Source of the DNA: Acidobacteriota bacterium
GTDB taxonomy: Bacteria; Acidobacteriota; Blastocatellia; UBA7656
Assembly: GCA_038040445.1 (NCBI GenBank)
Contig: JBBPIG010000002.1
Location: 321,847 to 385,846 of the forward strand
Reading direction: 5' to 3'
DNA: 64,000 nt
Position numbers and translations under genes: made by a program. The first letter of the stretch is position 1, and each line of letters begins with the position of its first letter. Positions 946 to 53,520 of this stretch are shown here, piece by piece. The notes beneath the pieces were generated by a model, which searched no databases, was not told the origin of the DNA, and was given only the letters and a program-made list of their open reading frames with translations.

Positions 946-2289
946 TCAGCGCGTGGTCACACCCTCAGTGAGGGCGCGGTTGCTCGCGACTAGAAGCGCA
1001 CACAGCGGGTCCGCAGTCAGCTCGGACCATCGCACCGATTTAGGTGGATTGCTCGCGTTGTTCTGATTGTCTTCGGAGTTGTCGAAGTAGGCAATCACTT
1101 CGACTCGCGTGCCCTTAGGCAAGGCGACGGGCTGCTTGAAGTAATAGGTTGGCTCCCAGTCAAACTGATAGCCGCGAGTCCATATCAGCACTTCCTCCGA
1201 GCCATCGGGCCGGTATGCAGTCGCCTGAAGTGAAACGACCAGCGGATGCACGTTCGGGCGAATCGCGATTGCTTCTGTGTCGCCCGGCGTCGTGAACGAC
1301 AGCTTCAATCGATGAAACTCAGCGCCGACAGGAATGATTGCGTCAGGATTGGTGATTGCGAACTCCTGAACCTGTTTGCGCGGCGGAGTCTTTGCAAAGT
1401 AGAGGCCGACCGCGCTCACGTCTTTGCTTGCTTCGGCCGAGCCGCGATAGTGAATCTTGACTGCTATGCGAGAGCCGGCGGGCAGCAGCCGTGCGACACC
1501 ATCATCAAACCGGACCGTCTTCTGCCCTGGCATCCATGTCGCAAGCACTACCGCATTCGCTGGATCCGCAGGAGAGGCCGCTTCTTCGTTCTTGACAGGC
1601 ATCATCGGCGGCGGCTGCACGCCCACATTGTTTTTCAAAACGTACAGTGCCGCACAGTGGACCACTGATCCGTTGCCGGGTTGCAAATCAATTGCTGTCA
1701 ACCAACGGTCTTCTTTCAAGTGAGTCGGCAGTTCGAAGGTCCGGTACTGGTTGGCATCGGCCTCAATCTTCGATTCGATCTCCGGCTTGAGAATAAGATC
1801 GGGTGTGCCCAACTGCCAGTCATTCGAGAACAACGGGGCTGCCGGCAAGTCTTTATCGTCACCTTTGGGCGCGCCGCCTTCGACCCAATTAACTATCAAG
1901 TCTACGTCGCGTTGCGTCAGCGAAGGCGCGTTGCGGAATTCGCCGTAGCCTTTAGCCGCGGGCCACAGCGGCATTCGCTTCTCGAGAATTTCCTCTTTGA
2001 TGGCCTTCGCCCACGGGCGGGCTTCGTCGTAGGTAGCTAGCGACATAGCTATGCCGCCGGTGTGATGACATCCCAAACAACTCCGCTGCAAGGTGCGCAC
2101 GACTTCTTTGTTGAACCTGACTTTTGTCGTTATCGGCTCGTGCGCGGAAGTGAAGGCAAAAGGCAAAAGGCAAAAGGCAAAAGTAAGAACACTGAGCAAA
2201 GAGCGTCTGAGTGGGTGGGCCCGCGGCAGCCACGACGCCGAGCCTGGCGCCGCTACTTTTGCCTTTTGCCTTTTGCCTTTTGCCGTCAT
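946..2289 (-). CDS. Secreted c-type cytochrome / degenerate PHM-like copper protein (last gene of six-gene array)
   Basis: 447 residues. A c-type haem motif CLGCH (71-75) is followed by the same PHM-like two-domain module as the five upstream paralogs. The copper ligands are eroded: the paralogs' VVHH is VVHC, the HMH is reduced to NVH, and the Met of the EMM motif is gone (PLCALL). IHYRG keeps one His. Copper monooxygenase activity is therefore doubtful, although haem binding should persist. The first ~50 codons coincide with a perfect 31-bp inverted repeat: one arm encodes the Lys-rich n-region and the other the hydrophobic core FAFCLLPFAF of the signal peptide. No alternative in-frame ATG lies before the haem motif. 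It may have been recruited as an electron carrier or a structural partner. Confidence 0.8.
   Translation of the reverse strand: MTAKGKRQKAKVAAPGSASWLPRAHPLRRSLLSVLTFAFCLLPFAFTSAHEPITTKVRFNKEVVRTLQRSCLGCHHTGGIAMSLATYDEARPWAKAIKEEILEKRMPLWPAAKGYGEFRNAPSLTQRDVDLIVNWVEGGAPKGDDKDLPAAPLFSNDWQLGTPDLILKPEIESKIEADANQYRTFELPTHLKEDRWLTAIDLQPGNGSVVHCAALYVLKNNVGVQPPPMMPVKNEEAASPADPANAVVLATWMPGQKTVRFDDGVARLLPAGSRIAVKIHYRGSAEASKDVSAVGLYFAKTPPRKQVQEFAITNPDAIIPVGAEFHRLKLSFTTPGDTEAIAIRPNVHPLVVSLQATAYRPDGSEEVLIWTRGYQFDWEPTYYFKQPVALPKGTRVEVIAYFDNSEDNQNNASNPPKSVRWSELTADPLCALLVASNRALTEGVTTR
2155..2284. repeat. Foldback element, GGCAAAA heptamer family, inside a CDS
   Basis: Perfect 31-nt arms (2155-2185 and 2254-2284). 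Each arm is four tandem GGCAAAA heptamers plus GTA, with a 68-nt spacer. The element lies wholly within the 5' coding end of the degenerate cytochrome gene. A related but imperfect element is at 45534-45613. Confidence 0.9.
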
Positions 2290-2373
2290 ATTACTCGGGC
2301 CGACCCAACCGTGCAGGTTGAATCGGCCCTTTGATTCTAACCGAAAGTTCTAAGCGAGAGAATCAGACCGCTG

Positions 2374-3597
2374 CTACTGTTTGTTCTGGCTGACGTCGAC
2401 CTTGCTTTGCGGAGCGTCGACGGTGTAGCTCATCCAGCCGATCATCATCTCTTCCCAAGTCTGATCGCCCCAGCGCACTTCCTTCTTCGGATCGGGGTTA
2501 TACTTGTTCTTCTCCGAGTTGTCGAAGTGAGCAAGGCAGTCGATGCGCGTGCCCTTCGGCGCGGCCAATGTCTCTTTCAGCACATAGTAGGTCTGCCACG
2601 CAAAGTCATACTTCGGCACCGACAGCAGAACTCTCGTCGTGCCGTCCGGGAACGTCGCGCGAAACTCAAAGTCCTTACCGCGATAATGCATATGCGGCAT
2701 CAGAGAGTAGACGTGCGAGTCCTGAGTGAATGTGTAGGACGACTCGACGCGATAGTTCGGATCGCCCGGCGGAATCGCGAACCTTGCGTTCATAATCGGC
2801 CGCGTCATGATCTCGGCCTTTGGCGGCTCCTTCGAGAAAACGAATCCAACGTAAGACTTGTCCTTCGTTTCCGTCCCGTTCGGCGTGTAGTGAACCTGGA
2901 AGATCAGATCCGAGCCGGCGGGTATCTTGCGCGCGAGTCCTTTGCCGATTACCGCGGGCTGCTCGCCCGGCGCGTAGCCGACTATCAAGCGCTGCGGGTC
3001 TTTCGCGCTTTGGGCGAAGACGATTATATGATGCACGACGCCGCGTTCGCCCGGACGAATCTCGGCTGCTTGAATGTACATATCCTGTTTGAAGTTGGTT
3101 GGGACCTTGAAGTATTTGTACTCGACGACGCCGCTTGCAGGCACGGTGAATTCCTGAGGCAGATAGAAGACGACGTCCGGCTTGCCAATGTTCCACCCGC
3201 CTGCGAACTGCGGCGACGGTGGCAGGTCCCTGGGATTGCCTTCCTTCGCGCCTTGATCGACCCAGGTTACGATTGTGTCGATGTCCTTCTGCGAGAGCCG
3301 GCGGTCGTTCTCGAAAGTACCGTAGTGCGGGTCGGCGTGCCAGGGCGGCATCACACCGGTCGCGACCTTTTCTTTGATCGACTTCGCCCACGGCCGCGCG
3401 TCCTTGTAGCTCAACAGCGACATCGGCGCGATCTCGCCGGGTCGATGGCACCCTACGCAGTTGTTATTGAAGATCGGCGCGATGTCCTTAGCGAACGTAA
3501 CGTTGCTCTTCTTCACATCGGGACCGCTGGCTACAGCAACAGCACAGAAAGCTCCCAGGAAAAGAGCGGTGATCGAGGCTCCCAGAGTTCTTTTCAT
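2374..3597 (-). CDS. Secreted c-type cytochrome fused to PHM-like copper monooxygenase module
   Basis: 407 residues. The start is the ATG behind GGAGAGAAGG; an upstream in-frame ATG overlaps that ribosome site and is rejected. Signal peptide to about residue 24, then CVGCH (47-51) for covalent haem. Next come the signature ligands of copper type II ascorbate-dependent monooxygenases: HH (189-190), QVHY (H236), HMH (302-304) and EEMM near the C-terminus. In PHM/DBM these bind CuH and CuM. The shortest intact paralog of the array, and it lacks the glycine-rich insert present in the next three genes. Predicted periplasmic. Fusion to a cytochrome suggests electrons arrive through haem rather than free ascorbate (inference). 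Substrate unknown. Confidence 0.85.
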   Translation of the reverse strand: MKRTLGASITALFLGAFCAVAVASGPDVKKSNVTFAKDIAPIFNNNCVGCHRPGEIAPMSLLSYKDARPWAKSIKEKVATGVMPPWHADPHYGTFENDRRLSQKDIDTIVTWVDQGAKEGNPRDLPPSPQFAGGWNIGKPDVVFYLPQEFTVPASGVVEYKYFKVPTNFKQDMYIQAAEIRPGERGVVHHIIVFAQSAKDPQRLIVGYAPGEQPAVIGKGLARKIPAGSDLIFQVHYTPNGTETKDKSYVGFVFSKEPPKAEIMTRPIMNARFAIPPGDPNYRVESSYTFTQDSHVYSLMPHMHYRGKDFEFRATFPDGTTRVLLSVPKYDFAWQTYYVLKETLAAPKGTRIDCLAHFDNSEKNKYNPDPKKEVRWGDQTWEEMMIGWMSYTVDAPQSKVDVSQNKQ

Positions 3598-3715
3598 CCT
3601 TCTCTCCTTCGCTTCAAACAAGATACTTTGCCCTGGAAAATCATCGGGCGACCTTGGCGTCTAAGATACCGCAGTGAACGTCTGCATGCTACCGGATTGA
3701 TGACGAGCGCAAAGC

Positions 3716-5371
3716 CTATTTACCTGCGCCGCTCGAAGCTGTCTTGTTCACTCTCTTCGCGCGCAGCTTCATGCCATTGATCTCAAAGATAAGCTCGGTT
3801 ACGTCGCCCCGCTCATTCTTCACGAAGGTAACTTGCGCGTCGATGACCGTGAAAAAGAACTTGGTCTCGGATTCAGGGAACGCTTCCACCTTACCCTGTC
3901 CTGGCACCGAGAACATCAGCTTGTCGCCTTCCCTGATGATCGTGAAAAGCTGCGGGCCGATCGCGTATTCGCCCGCGTATGTGTCGTACGTCTTGAGGTC
4001 GATCTTCGCGACCTTGCGGGCTCGCGCCGCCGAGACGTAGTCGAAGTACCCGACCATCATTTCGTCATAGGTCGGGTCTCCAAATCGCACCGTCTTCGTA
4101 GGATCAGGGTTGTATTTGTTCTTCTCCGAGTTGTCGTAGTGAGCGGTGACCAGCATCTTCGTCCCTTTTGGAAGTAGGAGCGGTTTCTCGAGCTTGTACA
4201 ACGTCTGCCAGTTGAAGTCGTAATTGGGAACGAAGAGCACCGTCTCGCGCCTGCCGTCTGGATAGATCGCTTCGTATTTCATGTCCTTCCCACGCAGGTG
4301 CATGTGCGGAAGGAAGGTGAACAGCTCGACATCGCGGCTGAAGGTGTAACAAGCCTTGACCTCGTGGTTGTCGGCGCCCGCGGGAATCTTGAAGTAGTGA
4401 TTGATAACGCCGAACGACGTGAGCACTTTCTCGGGCGGACCCTTGGCGAAGAACAGCCCCACGCTGCTGCGGTCTTTCTCAACCTTGCCGGTCGTCTTCG
4501 AGTAATGAACCTGAAGGACTATATTCGAGCCAGCGGGAATCGACTTGGCCGTGCCCGGAGGAAACACATCCATATCTTTGCCGGGGGTGTAGAAGCACAA
4601 GGGGAACCCAAGACCTTCCTGGCCGCTGCCGCGAGCGAGCCCGCCGTTGGGCGCGCTGCAGCCGTCATCGTAGGCCGGCGCGTCCAGCTTCGCGCGAACC
4701 AACGTACCATCCTGATAGAAAATGGACTGGGCGCTTGGACGGCCCCCAGTGCTCTTCCATTGAGCCAGCATCTGCGGAGTCTGTATGAACGCGATGACGT
4801 GATGTACGACCTTCCTGTTGCCGGGATGAATCTCAGCGGCCTGAATCCACACATCCTCTTTGAAGCTGGTCGGCATAGTGAAGTTGATGTACTCGTCGGA
4901 ACCGCTGGCTTCGATGGTGTAATCCTCTTGCATCGAGAGAACTACATCGGGTTTCCCGATCTTCCAATCTGTGGGGAAGGTAGGCTGGGCCGGAAGGTCT
5001 TTTGCGCTGCCTTCTTTCGCTCCTTGATCGACCCAGGCGACGATCGTATCGATGTCCTGCTGCGTTAGCGTGCGGTCGTTCGAGAACTGACCGTAGTGCG
5101 GATCCGCGTGCCAGGGCGGCATCTGGCGAGTGACCACTTTCTCTTTGATCGAGCGGGCCCACGCCCTCGCGTCCTTGTAGGTCAGCAGCGACATCGGCGC
5201 CATATCGTTCGGCCGATGGCAGTCAGCGCAGTTCTTGTACAAGATCGGCGCGACGTCTTTCGTAAAGGTTACGGCCTTCTTCGAATCGCTCGCGTCGATC
5301 GTCGGTGAAAGAAGAAAACAAAACGCTGTTAAGGCTGTTCCGGCAAACAAGAGTGTAATCGCTTTCTTCAT
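3716..5371 (-). CDS. Secreted c-type cytochrome / PHM-like copper monooxygenase with extra C-terminal domain
   Basis: 551 residues, the longest of the six paralogs. Signal peptide, CADCH haem motif near residue 50, then RKVVHHVIAF, VHYSK, PHMHLRGKDM and DEMM, so all expected copper ligands are present. It differs by a C-terminal tail of about 85 residues (from DTYAGEYAIG onward) that resembles the small beta-barrel DUF3471-type domain often found after beta-lactamase-like proteins. Ribosome site GAGGAG before ATG. The 118-bp gap to the next gene and 142-bp gap to the previous one are compatible with one operon. The middle insert with paired Cys and Gly-rich segments is shared with the two genes upstream. 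Confidence 0.85.
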   Translation of the reverse strand: MKKAITLLFAGTALTAFCFLLSPTIDASDSKKAVTFTKDVAPILYKNCADCHRPNDMAPMSLLTYKDARAWARSIKEKVVTRQMPPWHADPHYGQFSNDRTLTQQDIDTIVAWVDQGAKEGSAKDLPAQPTFPTDWKIGKPDVVLSMQEDYTIEASGSDEYINFTMPTSFKEDVWIQAAEIHPGNRKVVHHVIAFIQTPQMLAQWKSTGGRPSAQSIFYQDGTLVRAKLDAPAYDDGCSAPNGGLARGSGQEGLGFPLCFYTPGKDMDVFPPGTAKSIPAGSNIVLQVHYSKTTGKVEKDRSSVGLFFAKGPPEKVLTSFGVINHYFKIPAGADNHEVKACYTFSRDVELFTFLPHMHLRGKDMKYEAIYPDGRRETVLFVPNYDFNWQTLYKLEKPLLLPKGTKMLVTAHYDNSEKNKYNPDPTKTVRFGDPTYDEMMVGYFDYVSAARARKVAKIDLKTYDTYAGEYAIGPQLFTIIREGDKLMFSVPGQGKVEAFPESETKFFFTVIDAQVTFVKNERGDVTELIFEINGMKLRAKRVNKTASSGAGK

Positions 5372-5447
5372 ACTAAGGCTCCTCTTCCCCTAGCCTAACG
5401 AGCCCGGCGGCGTCGCGCCAGTCTCCAGTTTCTCTCTTATACACTAC

Positions 5448-5486
5448 GCGCCGGCCACGGCAAAGCTTCTTTGCCGTGACCGGCGC
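5448..5486. repeat. Tight foldback hairpin (18-bp stem, 3-nt loop)
   Basis: Arms 5448-5465 and 5469-5486 (GCGCCGG..ACGGCAAAG) match with one mismatch around a CTT loop. The hairpin lies between two genes of the six-gene array. No T-run follows on either strand, so it is not a classic terminator; it could be an mRNA processing or stability hairpin, or a REP-like unit. Confidence 0.85.
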
Positions 5487-5513
5487 CCATTGTTCGCAGT
5501 GCTAGATTCAAGA

Positions 5514-6962
5514 TTACTTACCGCTAGCCCTCGCTGCGTCAGGCTTCGGAGCCTTCATCGGGTTGTCGATCGTGATGTCCATCCAACCGATCATCATTTC
5601 ATCGTAAGTCGGATCGCCCCACCTGACATCCTTCTTCGGATCGGGGTTGTACTTGTTCTTTGTCGAGTTGTCGAAGTGAGCGGTCACGATTAACTTCGTG
5701 CCCTTGGGAATATTCACCGGCCGTTTCAACCAGTAAACCGACTGCCAGTTGAAGCTGAACTTCGGCACCCACAACAGCGTCTCGCGTTTTCCGTCGGGAT
5801 AGATAGCCTCATACTTCATGTCTTTCCCGCGAAGGTGCATGTGAGGCATGTAGTTGATCACTTGAATGTCGCGCGGGACCGTCTGGCACGCGACGACTTC
5901 GTGGTTGCCGTCGCCTGCCGGAATCTTGAACGTCACGTTGGCGGCCGCGCTGGTGAGGACCATCTTGTCCGGAGGCTGCTTGGCGAAGATCAACCCAATG
6001 CTGGTGCGATCAGTCACAGACTCTTTGAGCGAGCCCCTGAAAGCGGAGTAGTGCATCTGGAACATCAGAGTCGAACCAGCCGGAAGTCGCTTGGCGGTGC
6101 CGGGAGGATAAGCAGTGTTCCCCGTTCCCGGCGCGAAGCCGGCCAGCAGCATCCCCTCGTTCTCACCTTCACCGTTCCCGCCTGGCTGCCGGCCGCCCGC
6201 GACTTTCTGGTCGCAAGTGTTATCAATCACCGGCGCGTCCATTTTTACGCGTCTCAGATTTCCGTCCAGATAGAACAACCCCGAACCGCCTGCGGCGCGT
6301 TTTCCGAGCTTCTCGCCCTTAGCCTTCGCGTCTTCGACCCGCTTGGCCATCATCTGCGGAGTCTGGATGAAAGCGATCACGTGATGCACGACTCGCCTGT
6401 TGCTGGGATGTATCTCGGCCGCCTGTACCCAGACGTCTTCCTTGAAATTGGTCGGGATGAAGAAGTTGATGTATTGATCCGGATCGTCCGGCTTGACTAC
6501 ATGCTCTTCGGCCATCTGAAGCACGACGTCCGGCTTGCCGACTTCCCATCCGCCGCCGACAACCTCGGGCATCTTCGGGAGGTCCTTTGCGTTGCCTTCT
6601 TTGGCGCCCTGATCGACCCAGGCAACAACCGTGTCAATGTCTTTCTGGGCCAACCTGTGATCGTTCGTGAATTCCCCGAAAGCCGGGTCGGGGCTCCAGG
6701 GCGGCATCTCGCGATTGACTACTTTCTCTTTGATCGAGCGAGCCCACGGCCTCACTTCCTTGTAGCTGAGCAGCGTCATCGGCGCGATGTCGTTTGGCCT
6801 GTGGCACACGGCGCAATTGTTATACAGGATCGAGGCCACATCCTTGGAAAACGTGACTGCCTTTGCCGTGCCCGGTCCACTGGCGCGCGTCAACGGCGAG
6901 AAAATAAACCCGAGCACCGCCAGGCACCCCAGTCCAACACTCATCGAAATCGCTTTCTTCAT
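5514..6962 (-). CDS. Secreted c-type cytochrome fused to PHM-like copper monooxygenase module
   Basis: 482 residues. The start is the ATG behind AAAGGGGACTA; an in-frame ATG nine codons upstream has no ribosome site. Order: signal peptide, CAVCH haem motif (~res 50), a WVDQGAKEGN segment common to the array, RRVVHHVIAF (CuH ligands), FQMHYSA, PHMHLRGKDMKYE (CuM ligands) and DEMMIGW (Met ligand). A Gly-rich insert (AGGRQPGGNGEGEN) sits in the middle. All the family's copper ligands are present, so it is probably active. No c-type maturation genes are in the window. Confidence 0.85.
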   Translation of the reverse strand: MKKAISMSVGLGCLAVLGFIFSPLTRASGPGTAKAVTFSKDVASILYNNCAVCHRPNDIAPMTLLSYKEVRPWARSIKEKVVNREMPPWSPDPAFGEFTNDHRLAQKDIDTVVAWVDQGAKEGNAKDLPKMPEVVGGGWEVGKPDVVLQMAEEHVVKPDDPDQYINFFIPTNFKEDVWVQAAEIHPSNRRVVHHVIAFIQTPQMMAKRVEDAKAKGEKLGKRAAGGSGLFYLDGNLRRVKMDAPVIDNTCDQKVAGGRQPGGNGEGENEGMLLAGFAPGTGNTAYPPGTAKRLPAGSTLMFQMHYSAFRGSLKESVTDRTSIGLIFAKQPPDKMVLTSAAANVTFKIPAGDGNHEVVACQTVPRDIQVINYMPHMHLRGKDMKYEAIYPDGKRETLLWVPKFSFNWQSVYWLKRPVNIPKGTKLIVTAHFDNSTKNKYNPDPKKDVRWGDPTYDEMMIGWMDITIDNPMKAPKPDAARASGK

Positions 6963-7028
6963 TAGTCCCCTTTGCCGCGCTACGCGCAACCTCTGGTGAA
7001 TCGAAACAGCCGCGCGACCATCAAGCTA

Positions 7029-8462
7029 TTACTTTCGCGCGGTCGCGTCCGGCTTCTCCATCCTGGAGGAGCCGTCTACATAGTATTCCATCCAACCTAT
7101 CATCATTTCTTCGTAGGTCGGGTCGCCCCAGCGAATCGTCTTCGCCGGATCGGGATTGTATTTGTTCTTGTCCGAGTTATCGAAGTGCGCCGTAACGATC
7201 AACTTCGTGCCTTTCGGCAGGGAAACCGGCCGCTTCAAATAATACATAGTCTGCCAGTTGAAGCTGAACTTCGGAACCGACAGTAGCGTTTCCTTACGTC
7301 CGTCCGGATAGATGACGTCGTAGCGCATGTCCTTGCCACGAAGATGCATGTGAGGCATGTAGCTGGTCAAGCGTACATCCGCGTCGAACGTGTAGCACGC
7401 AGTCACCTCATGATTTCCATCACCGGCTGGGAGCTTGAAGTAATGATTCTGAATCCCAACCGTATTCAAAGACTTCTCAGGCGGCTTGTTCGCGAAGTGC
7501 AGTCCCAGCCTGGTTCGATCGCCCTGCGCGCCATCGAATTTGCCGCCGTAGCTCGAGTAATGCATCTGAAACACCAGCATCGAACCCGCCGGTACCTTCT
7601 TTGCCGTGCCGGCCGGAAAAACATCTATACCCTTTCCCGGCGCGTACCCGGCCAGAAACAGCCCAAACACGTCGCCGCCTTCGCTGGCGCTCGGGCGCTT
7701 AAAAGCCGACCCGCCGTTCGGGTTGCCGCAGCCGTCGTCAATTACCGGTGCGTCCGCCTTTACCTTGAGCAGCGTCCCGTCGCGATAGAAGACGTCGCTC
7801 TGCATCACAGCGCGGGCGCGGCCTTCACCCTTCTTGAACTGCTCGATCATCTCAGGTGTCTGGATGAAGGCGATTACGTGATGAACGACCTTCCGGTTCC
7901 CTGGAAGAATCTCTGCGGCCGATACCCATTTGTCTTCTTTGAAGTTCGTGGGAACGATGAAGTTCTCTATCGTGTCCGGCATTCCTGGTTTGACGGTGAA
8001 GTCTTTGCCGATATCGAACACCGCATCGGGCTTGCCTAACCGCCAACCACCCGTTGAGGTGAACTCGGGGACCGGCTGCAGGTCCTTTGCGTTACCCTCT
8101 TTCGCTCCTTGATCGACCCAGGCGACGATCGTGTCGATGTCCTTCTGAGCGAGCCGATGATCGTTGGTGAACTCGCCGTATTTCGGGTCGGGACTCCAGG
8201 GCGGCATCTCACGCGTCAGCACTTTTTCTCTTATCGAACGCGCCCAGGGCCGAGCCTCCTTGTAGCTCATCAACGCCATTGGGGCGATGTCGTTCGTGCG
8301 ATGGCACTCCGCGCAGTTCTTGTAAATGATCGGCGCCACATCCTTGTTGAAAGTAACTTCCTTTTTGCTGCCAGAGCTTGCGCTGATCGAAGCCGACAAC
8401 ATCATGCTTGCCGCCAGTATCCCAGCCACCAGCACCATCGAAACCGACAAGGTTCTTTTCAT
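7029..8462 (-). CDS. Secreted c-type cytochrome fused to PHM-like copper monooxygenase module
   Basis: 477 residues. The start is MKRTLS, behind GGGAGGGC; the frame can be extended 39 codons upstream, but that stretch overlaps the end of the preceding gene and lacks signal-peptide character. Signal peptide, CAECH haem motif, RKVVHHVIAF, FQMHYSS, PHMHLRGKDMRYD and EEMMIGW are all present. A central insert (DDGCGNPNGGSAF) resembles that of two neighbours. It is separated by 64-66 bp from the genes on each side, which supports co-transcription. Very similar to the 5514-6962 protein, as expected of a recent tandem duplicate. Confidence 0.85.
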   Translation of the reverse strand: MKRTLSVSMVLVAGILAASMMLSASISASSGSKKEVTFNKDVAPIIYKNCAECHRTNDIAPMALMSYKEARPWARSIREKVLTREMPPWSPDPKYGEFTNDHRLAQKDIDTIVAWVDQGAKEGNAKDLQPVPEFTSTGGWRLGKPDAVFDIGKDFTVKPGMPDTIENFIVPTNFKEDKWVSAAEILPGNRKVVHHVIAFIQTPEMIEQFKKGEGRARAVMQSDVFYRDGTLLKVKADAPVIDDGCGNPNGGSAFKRPSASEGGDVFGLFLAGYAPGKGIDVFPAGTAKKVPAGSMLVFQMHYSSYGGKFDGAQGDRTRLGLHFANKPPEKSLNTVGIQNHYFKLPAGDGNHEVTACYTFDADVRLTSYMPHMHLRGKDMRYDVIYPDGRKETLLSVPKFSFNWQTMYYLKRPVSLPKGTKLIVTAHFDNSDKNKYNPDPAKTIRWGDPTYEEMMIGWMEYYVDGSSRMEKPDATARK

Positions 8463-8526
8463 CTTCAAGCCCTCCCGAAGTTCCACTTCGTGTTTGCTTT
8501 GCGTCAGTGTCTCCACGACGACGGCG

Positions 8527-9951
8527 CTATTTACCAGCGCGATTGAGCGCCGTTTCGTCTCGCAAGCGCTGCTTGTCAACCGTGTAGCTGATCCAACCGA
8601 TCATCATATCGTCATACGTGGGATCGCCGAAACGCACCACCTGCTTCGGGTCCGGGTTGTACTTATTCCCGGTCGAATTATCGAACAACGCCGTTACGAC
8701 GATCTTGGTCCCCTTCGGAAGCGCAATCGCCTTCTTCAAGTAGTAGACCGTCTGCCACGAGAAGCTATAATTCGGCACATCGATCATGACTTCGGAACGG
8801 CCGTCAGGATAGATAGCTTCGAACTTCATCGCCTTCCCGCGCAGGTGCATGTGCGGCATCAAGGTTTGAAGGTGAATGTCTTCCTTCGCGGTCCAGCACG
8901 AAGTGACCTTGTGATTGTCGGCGCCCGCAGGAATCTGGAAGTAGACGTTGGCGATTCCGTGCGTGTAGACATGCTTGTCGGCAGGCTGCTTCGCCAGCAC
9001 CAACCCGATCGATGAGCGATCCTTCTCGACTTTGCCGGTCGCTTTCGAGTAATGCATCTGCAATAGGATCTTCGAGCCTGCCGGGATTTTCTTGACTGTA
9101 CCCGGTTCCATCACTCCCGGAGGCATCCCCGGCGCAAAGCCAACAAGCAGATCAAACCCGCGTGACTCCTCTTTCGTGTCCAGCGACTCGCCGTTCCCGC
9201 CGTTGGGAAGCGCGCAACCGTCGTCGTGGACGGGCATACCCGGCTTCATGCGCATCAGGAAGCCTTCCTTACGGAACATGGATTTCTTTTCAGCGTCTTG
9301 CTGGTACTTCTCGATCTGTTCTTTGGTGAACTGCATCTGCTTGCCGTCCTTCGACGGAGGCGAAACAAACGCGATGATGTGGTGCACGATCTTGCGGTTT
9401 CCTGGCCGCGCTTCGGCCGCCTGAACGTAGACGTCTTCTTTGAAGTTGGTCGGGATCTCGAAGTATTGATACTCGTCCGGCCCTGAAGCCTCGAGCGTGA
9501 ACTCTTCGGGCATCGGCAAAACGATATCGGGCTTGCCGATGATCCAGCCTTCGACGAACTTCGGCGGCGCCGGCAAGTCCTTCGGGTCGCCTTCCTTGGC
9601 GTCTTGATCCACCCAAGCGGAGATCGTCTCGATTTGAGCCTGGCTCAAGCGGCGATCGTTCGAGAACTCGCCATAGTGCGGGTCAGCGTGCCAGGGCGGC
9701 ATCTGTTTGGTGGCGACTTTCTCCTTGATCGCCCGAGCCCACGGACGCGCGTCCTTGTAGCTCAAGAGCGACATCGGCGCAGCTTCGCCTGGACGGTGGC
9801 ATTCCGCACAGTTCTTATGGAAGATCGGCGCGACGTCACGGGTGAAGGTGACGTCTTTCTTGTTACCGGAATTGGCGCTGCTGGAACTGCCGATTGCGAG
9901 CGCGATTAAACAAAGAGCGACGAGAAGGGGGAGGGTGAGCTTCTTGGCCAC
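8527..9951 (-). CDS. Secreted c-type cytochrome fused to PHM-like copper monooxygenase module (first gene of array)
   Basis: 474 residues, starting at a GTG behind AAAGGAGACAGG. This is the first gene of the leftward array. It has a signal peptide (LTLPLLVALCLIALAIG), CAECH haem motif, RKIVHHIIAF, LQMHYSK, PHMHLRGKAMKFE and DDMMIGW, so both copper sites look intact. The insert has DDGCALPNGGNGES, like the genes downstream. Names such as cytochrome c or ascorbate-dependent monooxygenase fit, but no substrate can be assigned. The promoter for the array should lie in the 342 bp to the right. Confidence 0.85.
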   Translation of the reverse strand: MAKKLTLPLLVALCLIALAIGSSSSANSGNKKDVTFTRDVAPIFHKNCAECHRPGEAAPMSLLSYKDARPWARAIKEKVATKQMPPWHADPHYGEFSNDRRLSQAQIETISAWVDQDAKEGDPKDLPAPPKFVEGWIIGKPDIVLPMPEEFTLEASGPDEYQYFEIPTNFKEDVYVQAAEARPGNRKIVHHIIAFVSPPSKDGKQMQFTKEQIEKYQQDAEKKSMFRKEGFLMRMKPGMPVHDDGCALPNGGNGESLDTKEESRGFDLLVGFAPGMPPGVMEPGTVKKIPAGSKILLQMHYSKATGKVEKDRSSIGLVLAKQPADKHVYTHGIANVYFQIPAGADNHKVTSCWTAKEDIHLQTLMPHMHLRGKAMKFEAIYPDGRSEVMIDVPNYSFSWQTVYYLKKAIALPKGTKIVVTALFDNSTGNKYNPDPKQVVRFGDPTYDDMMIGWISYTVDKQRLRDETALNRAGK

Positions 9952-18614: not shown

Positions 18615-18670
18615 TCGAGCATTGTAGTGACGAGGAGAGAGGCTTTCAACGAAAGGCTTTGCACCCGAAC

Positions 18671-18764
18671 AATGTTCGTAGTTCGGCCTTCAGGCGGAAG
18701 TTCGTAGGCTGGCTCTCTCGCAATGCCGTACAAACTTCCGCCTGAAGGCCGAACTACAAACATT
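18671..18764. repeat. Foldback element with 36-nt arms
   Basis: Arms 18671-18706 and 18729-18764 are complementary at 34 of 36 positions; both differences are C/T, keeping G-U pairing in RNA. Loop 22 nt. The core reads GGCCTTCAGGCGGAAGTT. It lies between the lipoxygenase-like stop and the MFS start. Confidence 0.92.
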
Positions 18765-18774
18765 GCTTGACCGA

Positions 18775-32680: not shown

Positions 32681-32908
32681 AAAGGCAAAGAGCAAAGAGC
32701 AAAAGGTTCAGAGTTCAGGGTTCAGGGTTCGGAGTTCAGGGTTCAGAGTTCAGGCTCTAGCCTGGTTGTGCGTCGCAGGAGGAGGGTACTACCAGGCTAA
32801 AGCCTGAACTCTGAACCCGGAACTCTGAACCCGGAACTCTGAACCCAGAACTCTGAACCCTGAACTCCGAACCCTGAACTCCGAACCCTGAACTCCGAAC
32901 CCTGAACC
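32681..32908. repeat. Foldback element with expanded GAACTCTGAACCC tandem arm
   Basis: Left arm 32705-32765 (GGTTCAGAGTTCAGGG.. to CTAGCCTGG) is complementary to the right arm 32792-32908. The right arm is longer, built from repeated ~15-nt units of the kind GAACTCTGAACCC. The core GCTAAAGCCTGAACTCTG recurs at 53492-53513. A GCAAAGA repeat (32681-32703) flanks the left arm. Confidence 0.9.
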
Positions 32909-32962
32909 ATTTGCGTTTGTGCTACACTGCGTCGGAAATCAATCTGTGAGGATGGCTCACCG

Positions 32963-34516: not shown

Positions 34517-34580
34517 AATGAGGTAATACTAGTGACTTGCAACAGCCTTTCGGTAGCGATCAAATGGGTACGAAATCGGT

Positions 34581-34685
34581 GCGAATCCGTCAAATCGGTG
34601 TGATCGGTGGTCTATGAGTTCGTGTAACAATCGCATTCCCATCGGTGTATAGACCACGGATGACACTGATTCGACCGATTTGCGC
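34581..34685. repeat. Foldback element, AATCGGT/ACGGAT family
   Basis: 34581-34615 (ending GTGGTCTAT) and 34649-34685 (starting ATAGACCACGGAT) form imperfect arms built from AATCGGT/ATCCGT units. It lies between the secreted hydrolase and the NUDIX gene and belongs to the same family as 30221-30295. Confidence 0.75.
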
Positions 34686-34742
34686 GGATACTGCACTAGT
34701 GAAGCGCATGTTACAGGCCATTAGAAACTCAACCAATACCCA

Positions 34743-35318: not shown

Positions 35319-35441
35319 TTTCAACTCTCTGCGCGATCTCGGCGTCCTCTGCGCCTCGGCGGTGAGGTTTTGCCACCAGTATTCAGCGCGGCGACGCAGA
35401 GAACGCAGAGGTTGCGCAGAGAATAGTTCAAACTAGGACAC
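35310..35441. repeat. Foldback element, GCGCAGAGAACGCAGAG family, overlapping a stop codon
   Basis: The outer parts GTGTCCTAGTTT (35310-) and AAACTAGGACAC (-35441) pair, then quasi-tandem CTCTGCG units pair with CGCAGAG units, 50-nt arms in all. The NUDIX stop codon lies in the left arm. A stop-overlapping hairpin could end transcription or protect the 3' end. Confidence 0.9.
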
Positions 35442-45016: not shown

Positions 45017-45091
45017 GTACCGTAGACTGTCCAGTCTGCGGCGCCGAGTAATCTTGAAAAATAAATCCGCAGACTGGACAGTCTACGGTAC
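45017..45091. repeat. Foldback element, perfect 25-nt arms
   Basis: 45017-45041 and 45067-45091 are exact inverted copies (GTACCGTAGACTGTCCAG..) around a 25-nt loop. The arm holds a smaller palindrome AGACTG/CAGTCT. It lies exactly between the NosL-like stop (45099) and the DsbD start (44990). Confidence 0.95.
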
Positions 45092-45098
45092 CTCCCGA

Positions 45099-45617
45099 TC
45101 ACTTCCTCACGTCGCGAGCCATCTCCCCGGTCACTTCATTGAGCGACAACACCGTTCCCCCGTTCGCGCCAACAAACGTTTCGGCGTCCTCACGCTTCCC
45201 GAACGGCAGGAAGTCCGGTCCCATCGGTCCCTCGACCCTGCTCTTGTAAACAAACTTCGCCTCTCGAGCATCGACCGTTTGCTTTGACTGATAGTCCTTC
45301 ACCGTGATCCGTTCAATGTTAGCGCGATCTTTGTGCGCGTCGCCGGCGTCGTAACTATTCGGAGATGTGTAGAGCGCAAGCATGTCTCCCGGCGATTCAA
45401 ACATCAGCTTCTTTCCATCGTTGTAATAGATCTCAGCCGCCCAATTGTCAGACACATTGACCTTCATACGGCAGACGGGACAATACCCGGAAGTCGCGCC
45501 TGCCGGAACCGCGTCTCCGCGACCGGCCCCACAAGAAGTAAAAAGTAAAAAGGCAAAGGGCAAAAGTAAGAGCGCTCTTCCCTTTTTCCTTTTTACTTTT
45601 GCCTTTTTACTTGTCAT
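45099..45617 (-). CDS. NosL-like copper-binding lipoprotein
   Basis: 172 residues. Lipoprotein signal ending LLFTSCG (lipid Cys 29), then YCPVCRMKV (C46, C49, M51), the copper-binding motif of NosL, with [14 protein letters not shown] and [20 protein letters not shown] further on. NosL supplies Cu(I) to nitrous-oxide reductase; no nos genes are here, so a different copper client is likely, e.g. the six haem/copper proteins (inference). Its ATG overlaps the mnmA stop (ATGA). The signal peptide is encoded by a GGCAAAA-type foldback element. Confidence 0.85.
45534..45613. repeat. Foldback element, (A)GTAAAAAGGCAAA family, encoding a signal peptide
   Basis: Left arm AAGTAAAAAGTAAAAAGGC.. and right arm ..GCCTTTTTACTT pair imperfectly with register slips. 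The element lies inside the NosL-like CDS and encodes its Lys-rich n-region and hydrophobic core. Related to 2155-2284. Confidence 0.85.
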
Positions 45618-46708
45618 ACGATCCATCCCCCTCCAACCACCGCATCGCCGTCATAGAAGATCGTTGCCTGCCCCGGCGTGATCGCGGCCTGGGGCTCATC
45701 GAACTCGACTCGAACGCGCCCGGTTTCAGTCGGCGTTATCGTAGCCGCTGCGTCATTCGAGCGATAGCGTATGCGCACATTCGCCCGAAGGGGCCGATCA
45801 GGCGGCGCGATCGCAATCCAGTTGACACCCTTCGCACTCAACGACTTTCCATACAACTCGCTCCGCCGGCCAACCACCAATTGATTGCGCGGCACGTCGA
45901 TCTTGACGACATAGAGCGGCTCATTGGACGCGATGCCGATGCCGCGTCGCTGGCCAATCGTGAAGCGGTGCAATCCGGCGTGCTCACCAATCACCTTGCC
46001 GTCCGCAGTCTTGATCTCGCCCGCGGGAACGCTCGGCTCACCCATCTCGTATCGCGCATAGTTCTCGACGAACCGCGCATAGTCGCCGTCAGGTACGAAG
46101 CATATCTCCTGGCTCTCGGGCTTCTCGGCGGTCTCGAGCCCGATGCTTCGCGCGATCTCGCGCACCTCGGACTTGGTGATATCGCCGAGCGGGAATACCG
46201 CGCGCGCAAGCTGCTTTTGCGTCATCTCAAAAAGAAAGTACGACTGATCCTTCGAGAGATCGCGCCCCTTCTTGAGAACGAAGCGCCCGTTCTGTTCATT
46301 GTATTCCACGCGGGCATAGTGGCCGGTCGCGACGCGTTCGGCGCCCACCTCTCGCGCTACGGTAACGAGCCGCGCAAACTTCAGCTTGGTGTTGCACGAC
46401 ACGCACGGGATCGGAGTGCGGCCCGCGAGATAGTCTTCAACAAACGGTCGGACAACCGCGCGCTCAAACTCCTCTTCAAGGTTGAGCACGTAGAAAGGGA
46501 TTCCCAGATCCTGGGCCACGCATCGCGCATCGTAGACGTCCTCGAGCGAACAGCACCGCGAGGGCTGAGGCTCCTCATCGGGAGCAAGCCTCCGCCGCTG
46601 ATTCCACAACTGCATCGTGAAGCCGACGACGTCGTGGCCCTGCCGCTTCAGCATCGCGGCCGCGACCGAACTGTCAACGCCGCCGCTCATTGCTGCTGCT
46701 ATCGTCAT
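45614..46708 (-). CDS. mnmA: tRNA-specific 2-thiouridylase MnmA
   Basis: 364 residues. PP-loop [15 protein letters not shown] (8-14), C105 in [11 protein letters not shown] as catalytic Cys, C203 in [11 protein letters not shown] as second active-site Cys. Thiolates U34 of Lys, Glu and Gln tRNAs using ATP and a sulfur relay. Directly followed by the NosL-like gene, which it overlaps. Confidence 0.97.
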
Positions 46709-46861
46709 TGCTTGCCTGATCTTTGCTCGCGCGCTTACGCGATGCTATCATTCCGGTTCGTTATACGCTCAGTTAATAGTGCATGCCGGGCTCAAAGCTA
46801 AGAATTATACACAACGCCGAAGCATCGCGGAAAGGAACGACCGATAATCGCGAGACTCAAC

Positions 46862-47020
46862 CACAAAGGCACGAAGACACTAAGGCACCTGGGAGCGCAG
46901 GCATCCGTGCCTGCCTCGTTTCACTATGGCTATCTTCTTTTCAAAACGCCTCTCGCACAAGAACAAGCAGGCAGGGATGCCTGCGCTCCCAGGTCGTCTT
47001 AGTGTCTTTGTGCCTTTGTG
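46862..47020. repeat. Nested foldback: CTTTGTGCC arms enclosing the GGGAGCGCAGGCATC family
   Basis: Outer arms CACAAAGGCACGAAGACACTAAG / CTTAGTGTCTTTGTGCC.. flank inner arms CCTGGGAGCGCAGGCATC / GATGCCTGCGCTCCCAGG (46889-46907 and 46977-46995). The inner family also occurs alone at 38110-38219. The element ends 18 nt before the cbbQ-like ATG. Confidence 0.95.
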
Positions 47021-47038
47021 TTTGATCCCCAACCTGAT

Positions 47039-49429: not shown

Positions 49430-49577
49430 TAGACACTCCGTTGTAGTTTGCTATCGATAGGAGACCGCGACGCAGTCAGCGCAACCGGCGTGGCGCGCGC
49501 GCGAAAGCCAGGCCCCCCCCGACAACAAGGACCTTTCTAAGACGGTGTATGATGTGTGCGTGCGATGTGATACTCAA

Positions 49578-49695
49578 GCTCGTGGTCGGGAAGGGTGGCT
49601 TGCCCCCGCGTGGTCAATGCTGAGGAATACACCGCTGTGAGTCTAGAAGAGGCTTAGGAGGCAGCGGGGGCAAGCCACCCTTCCCGACCGCGAGC
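49578..49695. repeat. Foldback element with 32-nt arms
   Basis: 49578-49609 and 49664-49695 pair at 31 of 32 positions (core GGGAAGGGTGGCTTGCCC), loop 54 nt. It lies in the 400-bp gap after the membrane protein. Confidence 0.95.
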
Positions 49696-49836
49696 CTGAG
49701 CGAATGGCTATCTTGTAATTGCCGGTCAAAGTGTGCAACTTTGTAGCTGTGTCCTGCGGCCCCTTTTCCGCGTGCAAGCTAGTGGCGCGCCGCCGGCTGA
49801 GCAGGGGCGCAGTCGAGTTGTCGCAGTTGAGTAGTA

Positions 49837-53430: not shown

Positions 53431-53520
53431 ATTCAAAGTTCAGACCTAGAGTTCAGAGTTCGACCTTTAGGTTGCTGGTGCCGCTGGCAAGCTAAAGCTT
53501 GAACTCTGAACTTTGAACCT
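53431..53520. repeat. Foldback element, GTTCAGAG family (copy 2)
   Basis: Right arm CTAAAGCTTGAACTCTGAAC (53492-53511) pairs with the left arm, which has an extra 13-nt repeat unit. Same core as 32792-32908. The right end touches the stop codon of the kinase gene. Confidence 0.85.

Follow-up and report, generated by a model that had tools for sequence, protein, structure and literature searches.

The Rickettsia palindromic elements (RPE) are in-frame coding palindromes (Ogata et al. 2000, 2002; reviewed in PMC2229807), and in Yersinia the signal peptide of YPO1552 derives in part from the RU-2/YPAL repeat, the relatives of YPO1552 having unrelated signal peptides (Delihas 2007, PMC2759123; PMC2229807). 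The heptameric simple repeats of Xanthomonas and Nostoc and the tandem heptanucleotides of cyanobacteria form arrays near stop or start codons (PMC4692102). Palindromic amphipathic repeat coding elements (PARCEL) have also been reported (PMC2996958), and the antisense hydropathy rule holds that complementary codons specify opposite hydropathy (reviewed in PMC2206014).

The foldback repeats built from the heptamer GGCAAAA that are described here touch on all of these. Like RPE, with which we compare them by description, GGCAAAA foldbacks are a palindromic dispersed repeat that occurs both between genes and in frame inside genes and is tolerated by the protein; however, RPE are 105 to 146 bp long and lie in varied, mostly conserved proteins, whereas here a heptamer array lies at the signal peptide. 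The Yersinia repeat concerns few loci, whereas here dozens of genes of several families are concerned, the complementary arms provide n-region and h-region, and the reading is independent of the frame. With the heptamers of Xanthomonas and Nostoc the foldbacks share head-to-tail 7-base units that are over-represented versus other unit lengths, sometimes in inverted arrays, close to the stop or start between co-oriented genes, but those heptamers are G rich and under-represented in coding DNA, whereas here A/T-rich foldbacks are translated as signal peptides. PARCEL, too, are palindromic DNA that is translated into protein repeats of membrane-associated proteins, but as 25-residue tandem domains and not as signal peptides. 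GGCAAAA-type arms are one instance of the antisense hydropathy rule, whose literature, however, deals with peptide binding and code structure and not with palindrome-made signal peptides. We found no report of the GGCAAAA foldback family in open-licence papers. Coding palindromes and a repeat-derived signal peptide are already known, but a frame-independent heptamer foldback from which dozens of genes take their n-region and h-region appears to be new. Signal peptides evolve fast, and to our knowledge little is known about the origin of new ones; with the foldbacks, the domestication of repetitive DNA as protein-targeting signals can be followed concretely and counted.

The window, by which we mean the whole analysed stretch of 64,000 nucleotides, is part of contig C2 of a 6.75-Mb genome whose relatives are Blastocatellia (Acidobacteriota). 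A preliminary description made from the window alone had proposed that foldbacks encode the N-termini of two exported-type proteins, and the arms, the coordinates and the peptides were all reproduced from the sequence (Table 1). The 15-mer arm was present in 10 copies in the window's genome, versus none for the reversed control pattern; the foldback repeats of the window thus exceed chance expectation.

Table 1. Foldback arms, their genes and a neighbouring gene in the window
Feature	Position	Strand	Description
P0001 gene	946..2289	minus	Cytochrome-like/Cu-monooxygenase-like exported protein, 447 aa, CxxCH motif
P0001 A-rich arm (coding strand)	2257..2284	minus	4 x GGCAAAA, encodes AKGKRQKAK, after start ATG at 2289
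P0001 loop	2183..2256	minus	Codes VAAPGSASWLPRAHPLRRSLLSVL; its RR adjoins the hydrophobic core
P0001 T-rich arm (coding strand)	2155..2182	minus	4 x TTTTGCC, encodes hydrophobic core FAFCLLPFAF, then TSA↓HEP
P0002 gene	45099..45617	minus	NosL-type lipoprotein, PF05573 4e-24 (Pfam)
NosL (P0002) A-rich arm (coding strand)	45580..45612	minus	Encodes n-region
NosL (P0002) T-rich arm (coding strand)	45536..45567	minus	Followed by lipobox Cys (FTSC)
mnmA	45614..46708	minus	tRNA-thiouridylase, upstream neighbour of NosL; stop codon abuts element

The element of P0001 (2155-2284) consists of perfect four-unit arrays separated by 74 bases and scores as an inverted repeat with 35 nt per arm, 97% complementarity and a 68-nt spacer. 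The minus-strand open reading frame starts with MTAKGKRQKAK...SVLTFAFCLLPFAFTSAHEP (full N-terminal sequence, MTAKGKRQKAKVAAPGSASWLPRAHPLRRSLLSVLTFAFCLLPFAFTSAHEPITT), and the first ~49 codons are the predicted signal peptide. P0001 has 23 matches within its own genome and orthologues in 7 of 7 family genomes; a Pfam search found nothing at 1e-3. A run of tandem paralogous cytochrome/Cu-monooxygenase-like genes extends across 946-9951. The foldback of NosL (45536-45612) is shorter and imperfect compared with that of P0001 (arms AAGTAAAAAGGC... and ...GCCTTTTTACTT). Its open reading frame was listed with a start three codons upstream (MDRMTSKK), and the start is likely the ATG at 45617, which overlaps the mnmA stop as ATGA. 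That complementary arms encode both halves of the signal peptide holds for the two proteins, but P0001 fits less well than NosL: its Lys-rich arm lies ~25 residues ahead of the hydrophobic core, the RR is nearer, and it may be this RR rather than the distant arm that works as the n-region. In several relatives, the Lys-rich arm lies upstream of the start codon. Start sites downstream of the elements would speak against these peptides, but no in-frame start separates the element of NosL from its lipobox and CPVCRM motif, and in P0001 the sole candidate is a TTG six codons ahead of the core.

The preliminary description had noted that an A-rich strand reads as Lys and its complement as Phe/Leu, and this is true in a stronger form than proposed. 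A stop-free 7-base array encodes one cyclic heptapeptide whatever the frame, since a 7-base unit read as triplets cycles through every frame; for GGCAAAA this peptide is KRQKAKG and for its complement AFCLLPF. The arms thus read alike in three frames, and to require the right frame for the palindrome asks too much of them: only the loop has to remain free of stops and lead back into the reading frame of the gene. Of 2,340 cyclic heptamers, 1,180 are stop free on both strands, and among stop-free heptamers the hydropathies of the complementary strands are correlated with -0.71. Only 8 of the 2,340 are stop free with a net charge of +3 or more and an antisense Kyte-Doolittle (KD) mean of at least 2.0, and GGCAAAA is among these 8. 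The A arm precedes the T arm in all two-armed foldbacks listed, and because the palindrome has this fixed polarity, the order of a Lys-rich followed by a hydrophobic segment is valid on both strands. The near-automatic match to a signal peptide therefore results from the 7-base unit, the complementary hydropathy and the palindrome together.

When 119 genomes of the phylum were searched with a paired-arm pattern, G002 was the sole match, since the pattern requires two perfect arms; the survey pattern was therefore a single-arm 19-mer. The 15-base arm occurs in 10 to 57 copies in the well-supplied genomes, which represent four of the five genera of the family, and likewise in another family of the class (G128, G130 and G139); it is sparse in G069 and G146, occurs once in G089 and was not found by the single-arm search in the remaining sampled genomes of the phylum. 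One element used as query matched tens of places in G139, some with the loop included. Scanning contigs with NosL as the query yielded a single relative, a Blastocatellia MAG; its N-terminus and that of the G003 copy are identical.

Sites were picked from the DNA motif alone before their surroundings were read (n = 124 in 12 Blastocatellia genomes). The rule-based test, a home-made and permissive classifier, asked for a start, a positive n-region, a core with a KD of at least 2.0 on or just after the arm, a cleavage motif and coding sequence beyond. It was passed by 36 of the 124 sites, an approximate figure, since at least one accepted site, L249 (trpA-like by eye), seems to be a false positive, whereas some good sites (L251, L252, L221 and L164) were missed. 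When the same elements were reinserted at random in their own genome, 6.6% passed (binomial log10 p, -13.6), and when they were dropped at random between genes, 1.9% passed (log10 p, -31.7). A first null from random windows (6.5%) had ignored the composition of the elements and was replaced by the reinsertion of real elements. N-termini were read from open frames and not from gene calls; the atypical codons of signal peptides led the gene caller to trim them. Such N-termini are repeat derived, which is a warning for annotation and calls for care over nearby start sites. Frequently, a single arm rather than both is translated. Inside genes but away from the signal peptide, in-frame arms were seen by eye only in L166 and twice in L255, namely, A-rich arms within a hydantoinase-B-like enzyme (L166 in G002, 2076-2107) and within a sensor beta-propeller (L255 in G146, 1613-1627 and 2066-2089), both protein identities being by eye. 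Non-coding copies at L219, L220, L222, L231, L243 and L253 end a few bases from a start codon, as if inserting at gene starts, and elements also lie between or directly after tRNA genes (G000 C36:40882; L253 in G130).

Bearers with a Pfam match belong to extracytoplasmic families: NosL, SCO1/SenC, PQQ/BamB-like beta-propellers, SBP_bac_11 (solute binding), M16 peptidase, TolC-like OEP, VWA, fn3 and DUF885. In the genome of the window, complementary arms also encode both signal halves of an SCO1 protein (C1:38580) and a VWA protein (C4:205326). By rule-based scoring, the features of Sec signal peptidase I substrates are present (positive n-region, hydrophobic core and small-x-small motif), as in ...LLPFAFAFA↓QSG of the C4 protein, and a lipobox Cys, as for signal peptidase II, stands at the end of the core in NosL (FTSC), the fn3 lipoprotein (FSAC/FAAC) and L241 (LTGC).

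The preliminary description had suggested that mobile palindromes create new exported proteins and had asked for orthologues lacking the element. These turned out to carry ordinary signal peptides already. In the P0001 family the element is present in G000, G002, G003 and G006, whereas G001, G004 and G005 have an ordinary signal peptide; for NosL, G000 and G003 have the element and the G004 orthologue an ordinary signal peptide. L227 (G128) has the element-bearing N-terminus ...KIKRQKANIKNQKSGAFFFLLLPFAFCLLPFDFSSGQ-PPLFREVAAETGLNF, and its element-free counterpart of the same genus, L270 (G139), reads MRELGLLWKPRVCGAWITTLVIVLSAPSGFSES-TLFREVAAEVGLNF; because the upstream flanks of the two could not be aligned, no target-site duplication was readable. 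Element-bearing and element-free orthologues have the mature protein in common and differ in the signal. As far as the sequences tell, the element thus re-encodes or replaces signals of proteins that were already exported, and no newly exported protein was seen. Mobility of the element, also part of that suggestion, is plausible in view of its patchy presence, its tens of copies and the filled versus element-free orthologues.

The fn3 lipoprotein encoded after clpX has the element in G001, G002, G006, G128, G130 and G139 but not in G000, G003, G004 and G007. SCO1 has it in G000, G002 and G128, and in G003 the related heptamer GGCAGAA is found at the same position; L280 (G003) and L281 (G000) have their signal peptides from GGCAGAA and GGCAAAA, respectively, at the same place in the gene. 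In G139, the SCO1 array differs from that of G128 by point mutations; its length is the same and its hydrophobicity is retained, but the heptamer rhythm is gone. This signal now evolves like an ordinary signal peptide, and arms thus do erode. At five sites shared by G128 and G139, the arms are identical at 181 of 188 positions (96%), versus 2,316 of 2,995 (77%) for the downstream 600 nt and 68 of 115 for the bases between the arms. The arm identity exceeds what protein-level selection alone explains, although it is biased, the shared sites having been chosen by intact arms. Orthologous genes for the fn3 lipoprotein, SCO1, VWA and TolC-like proteins bear the element across genera or even families. 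Such sharing is more than random settling would lead one to expect, so that a preference for certain sites, a great age of the insertions or their local renewal must play a part; the patchy spread across genera calls for gain on repeated occasions, for loss or for renewal on the spot.

We favor, with a probability of roughly 0.7, a dispersed foldback repeat of Blastocatellia that is tolerated at the 5′ ends of exported genes as a signal-peptide mimic. Sequence, location bias, the extracytoplasmic identity of many bearers and orthologues with and without the element are direct observations. GGCAAAA-type repeats would spread by insertion or conversion and settle in short intergenic gaps, in many cases directly abutting a stop or start codon. 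The A-rich arm would be read as a Lys/Arg-rich peptide and the T-rich arm as a hydrophobic peptide, in any frame and on both strands. Where a gene whose product is already exported receives the repeat at its 5′ end, the repeat-encoded peptide would take the place of the signal peptide, wholly or in part, and the insertion would be tolerated and kept because this peptide can stand in for it, presumably as a Sec export signal that signal peptidase I or II recognises; copies elsewhere within genes would be purged. A bolder version, in which a frame- and strand-independent signal-peptide cassette repeatedly overwrote the signals of exported proteins in several Blastocatellia families, so that signal turnover was partly repeat spread and homogenisation rather than point mutation, is tentative, and we consider it slightly less likely than not.

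If instead the A-rich codons of an n-region and the T-rich codons of an h-region seeded heptamer slippage or template switching on the spot, nothing would have moved in. Tandem runs counted in 1.27 Mb of G000, sampled in stretches, agree with such growth in that period 7 (100 runs) is by far the commonest, with 93 runs of period 14, its double, and at most 18 for any other primitive period from 2 to 15; so do the single arms that occupy the matching half of a signal, the arrays that remain homogeneous at shared sites and the different heptamers at one position of SCO1 in G000 and G003. However, the same elements, in part including the loop, are found again at intergenic positions that are unrelated, e.g., between tRNA genes; the f57 elements have the common ends GAAATCAAAAGG...CCTTTTGATTTC (by eye; those of the window elements are less clear); and L227 and L270 differ across the whole 5′ region. 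As the origin of the elements, growth in situ is thus unlikely, but local slippage growth probably contributes to the upkeep of the arrays.

Less likely still is that the palindrome is kept for an mRNA stem-loop at the start codon (coupling, blocking or terminator-like) with the peptide as a by-product. The P0001 leader does fold with -83 kcal/mol (z, -8.6) with the start codon at the base of the stem; the starts of NosL, SCO1 and VWA overlap the upstream stop by 4 nt, as in translational coupling; and the A arm invariably comes before the T arm. But many signal-peptide sites have one intact arm and hence no such hairpin (L217/L247, L239 and L252), the z value rises from -8.6 to -2.4 in the same-genus P0001 orthologue of G003 with the signal peptide retained, and the A arm lies upstream of the start in G002 and G006. 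That intergenic elements were misjoined to downstream genes by a too-early start choice applies to some sites (an MRIK start lies beyond the element at C1:55078 and MCGLTGF at L180; L242, L243, L222 and probably L249 are further cases), but is very improbable as a general account, since NosL, P0001, SCO1, VWA, L227, L240, L241 and others have no plausible start between element and mature protein and a cleavage motif immediately after the T arm, and only the said 1.9% of random intergenic insertions pass.

Other heptamer families served as controls for a mimic tolerated at gene starts. GGCAGAA, whose complement reads AFCLLPS (KD, 1.76), is abundant in the genus of the window and nearly absent from other genera; about 4 of its 35 sites are signal peptides by eye, a lower share than that of GGCAAAA (Fisher p = 0.046, with differing genomes). 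Arrays of the stop-containing heptamers AAAATTG, AAAAATG and ACGGACT were intergenic in 17 of 17 cases. For AACCCTG (1 array) and ACGCATC (3 arrays) the frame was open to the downstream called start; the AACCCTG unit is unable to serve as a signal peptide because its reading contains a stop. The order GGCAAAA > GGCAGAA > stop-containing heptamers fits a tolerance filter. With these graded controls (GGCAAAA, GGCAGAA and stop-containing heptamers) and with element-bearing and element-free orthologues, the origin of signal peptides becomes a testable question. The window itself also contains a large intergenic foldback of another period-7 family, with GTTCAGG/GTTCAGA heptamers (32699-32914). Inverted repeats of other families, mostly intergenic, lie at 18670-18765, 34575-34689, 35326-35422, 45017-45091, 46857-47025, 49573-49700 and 53450-53512, and the one at 46857-47025 encloses a second one at 46887-46994.
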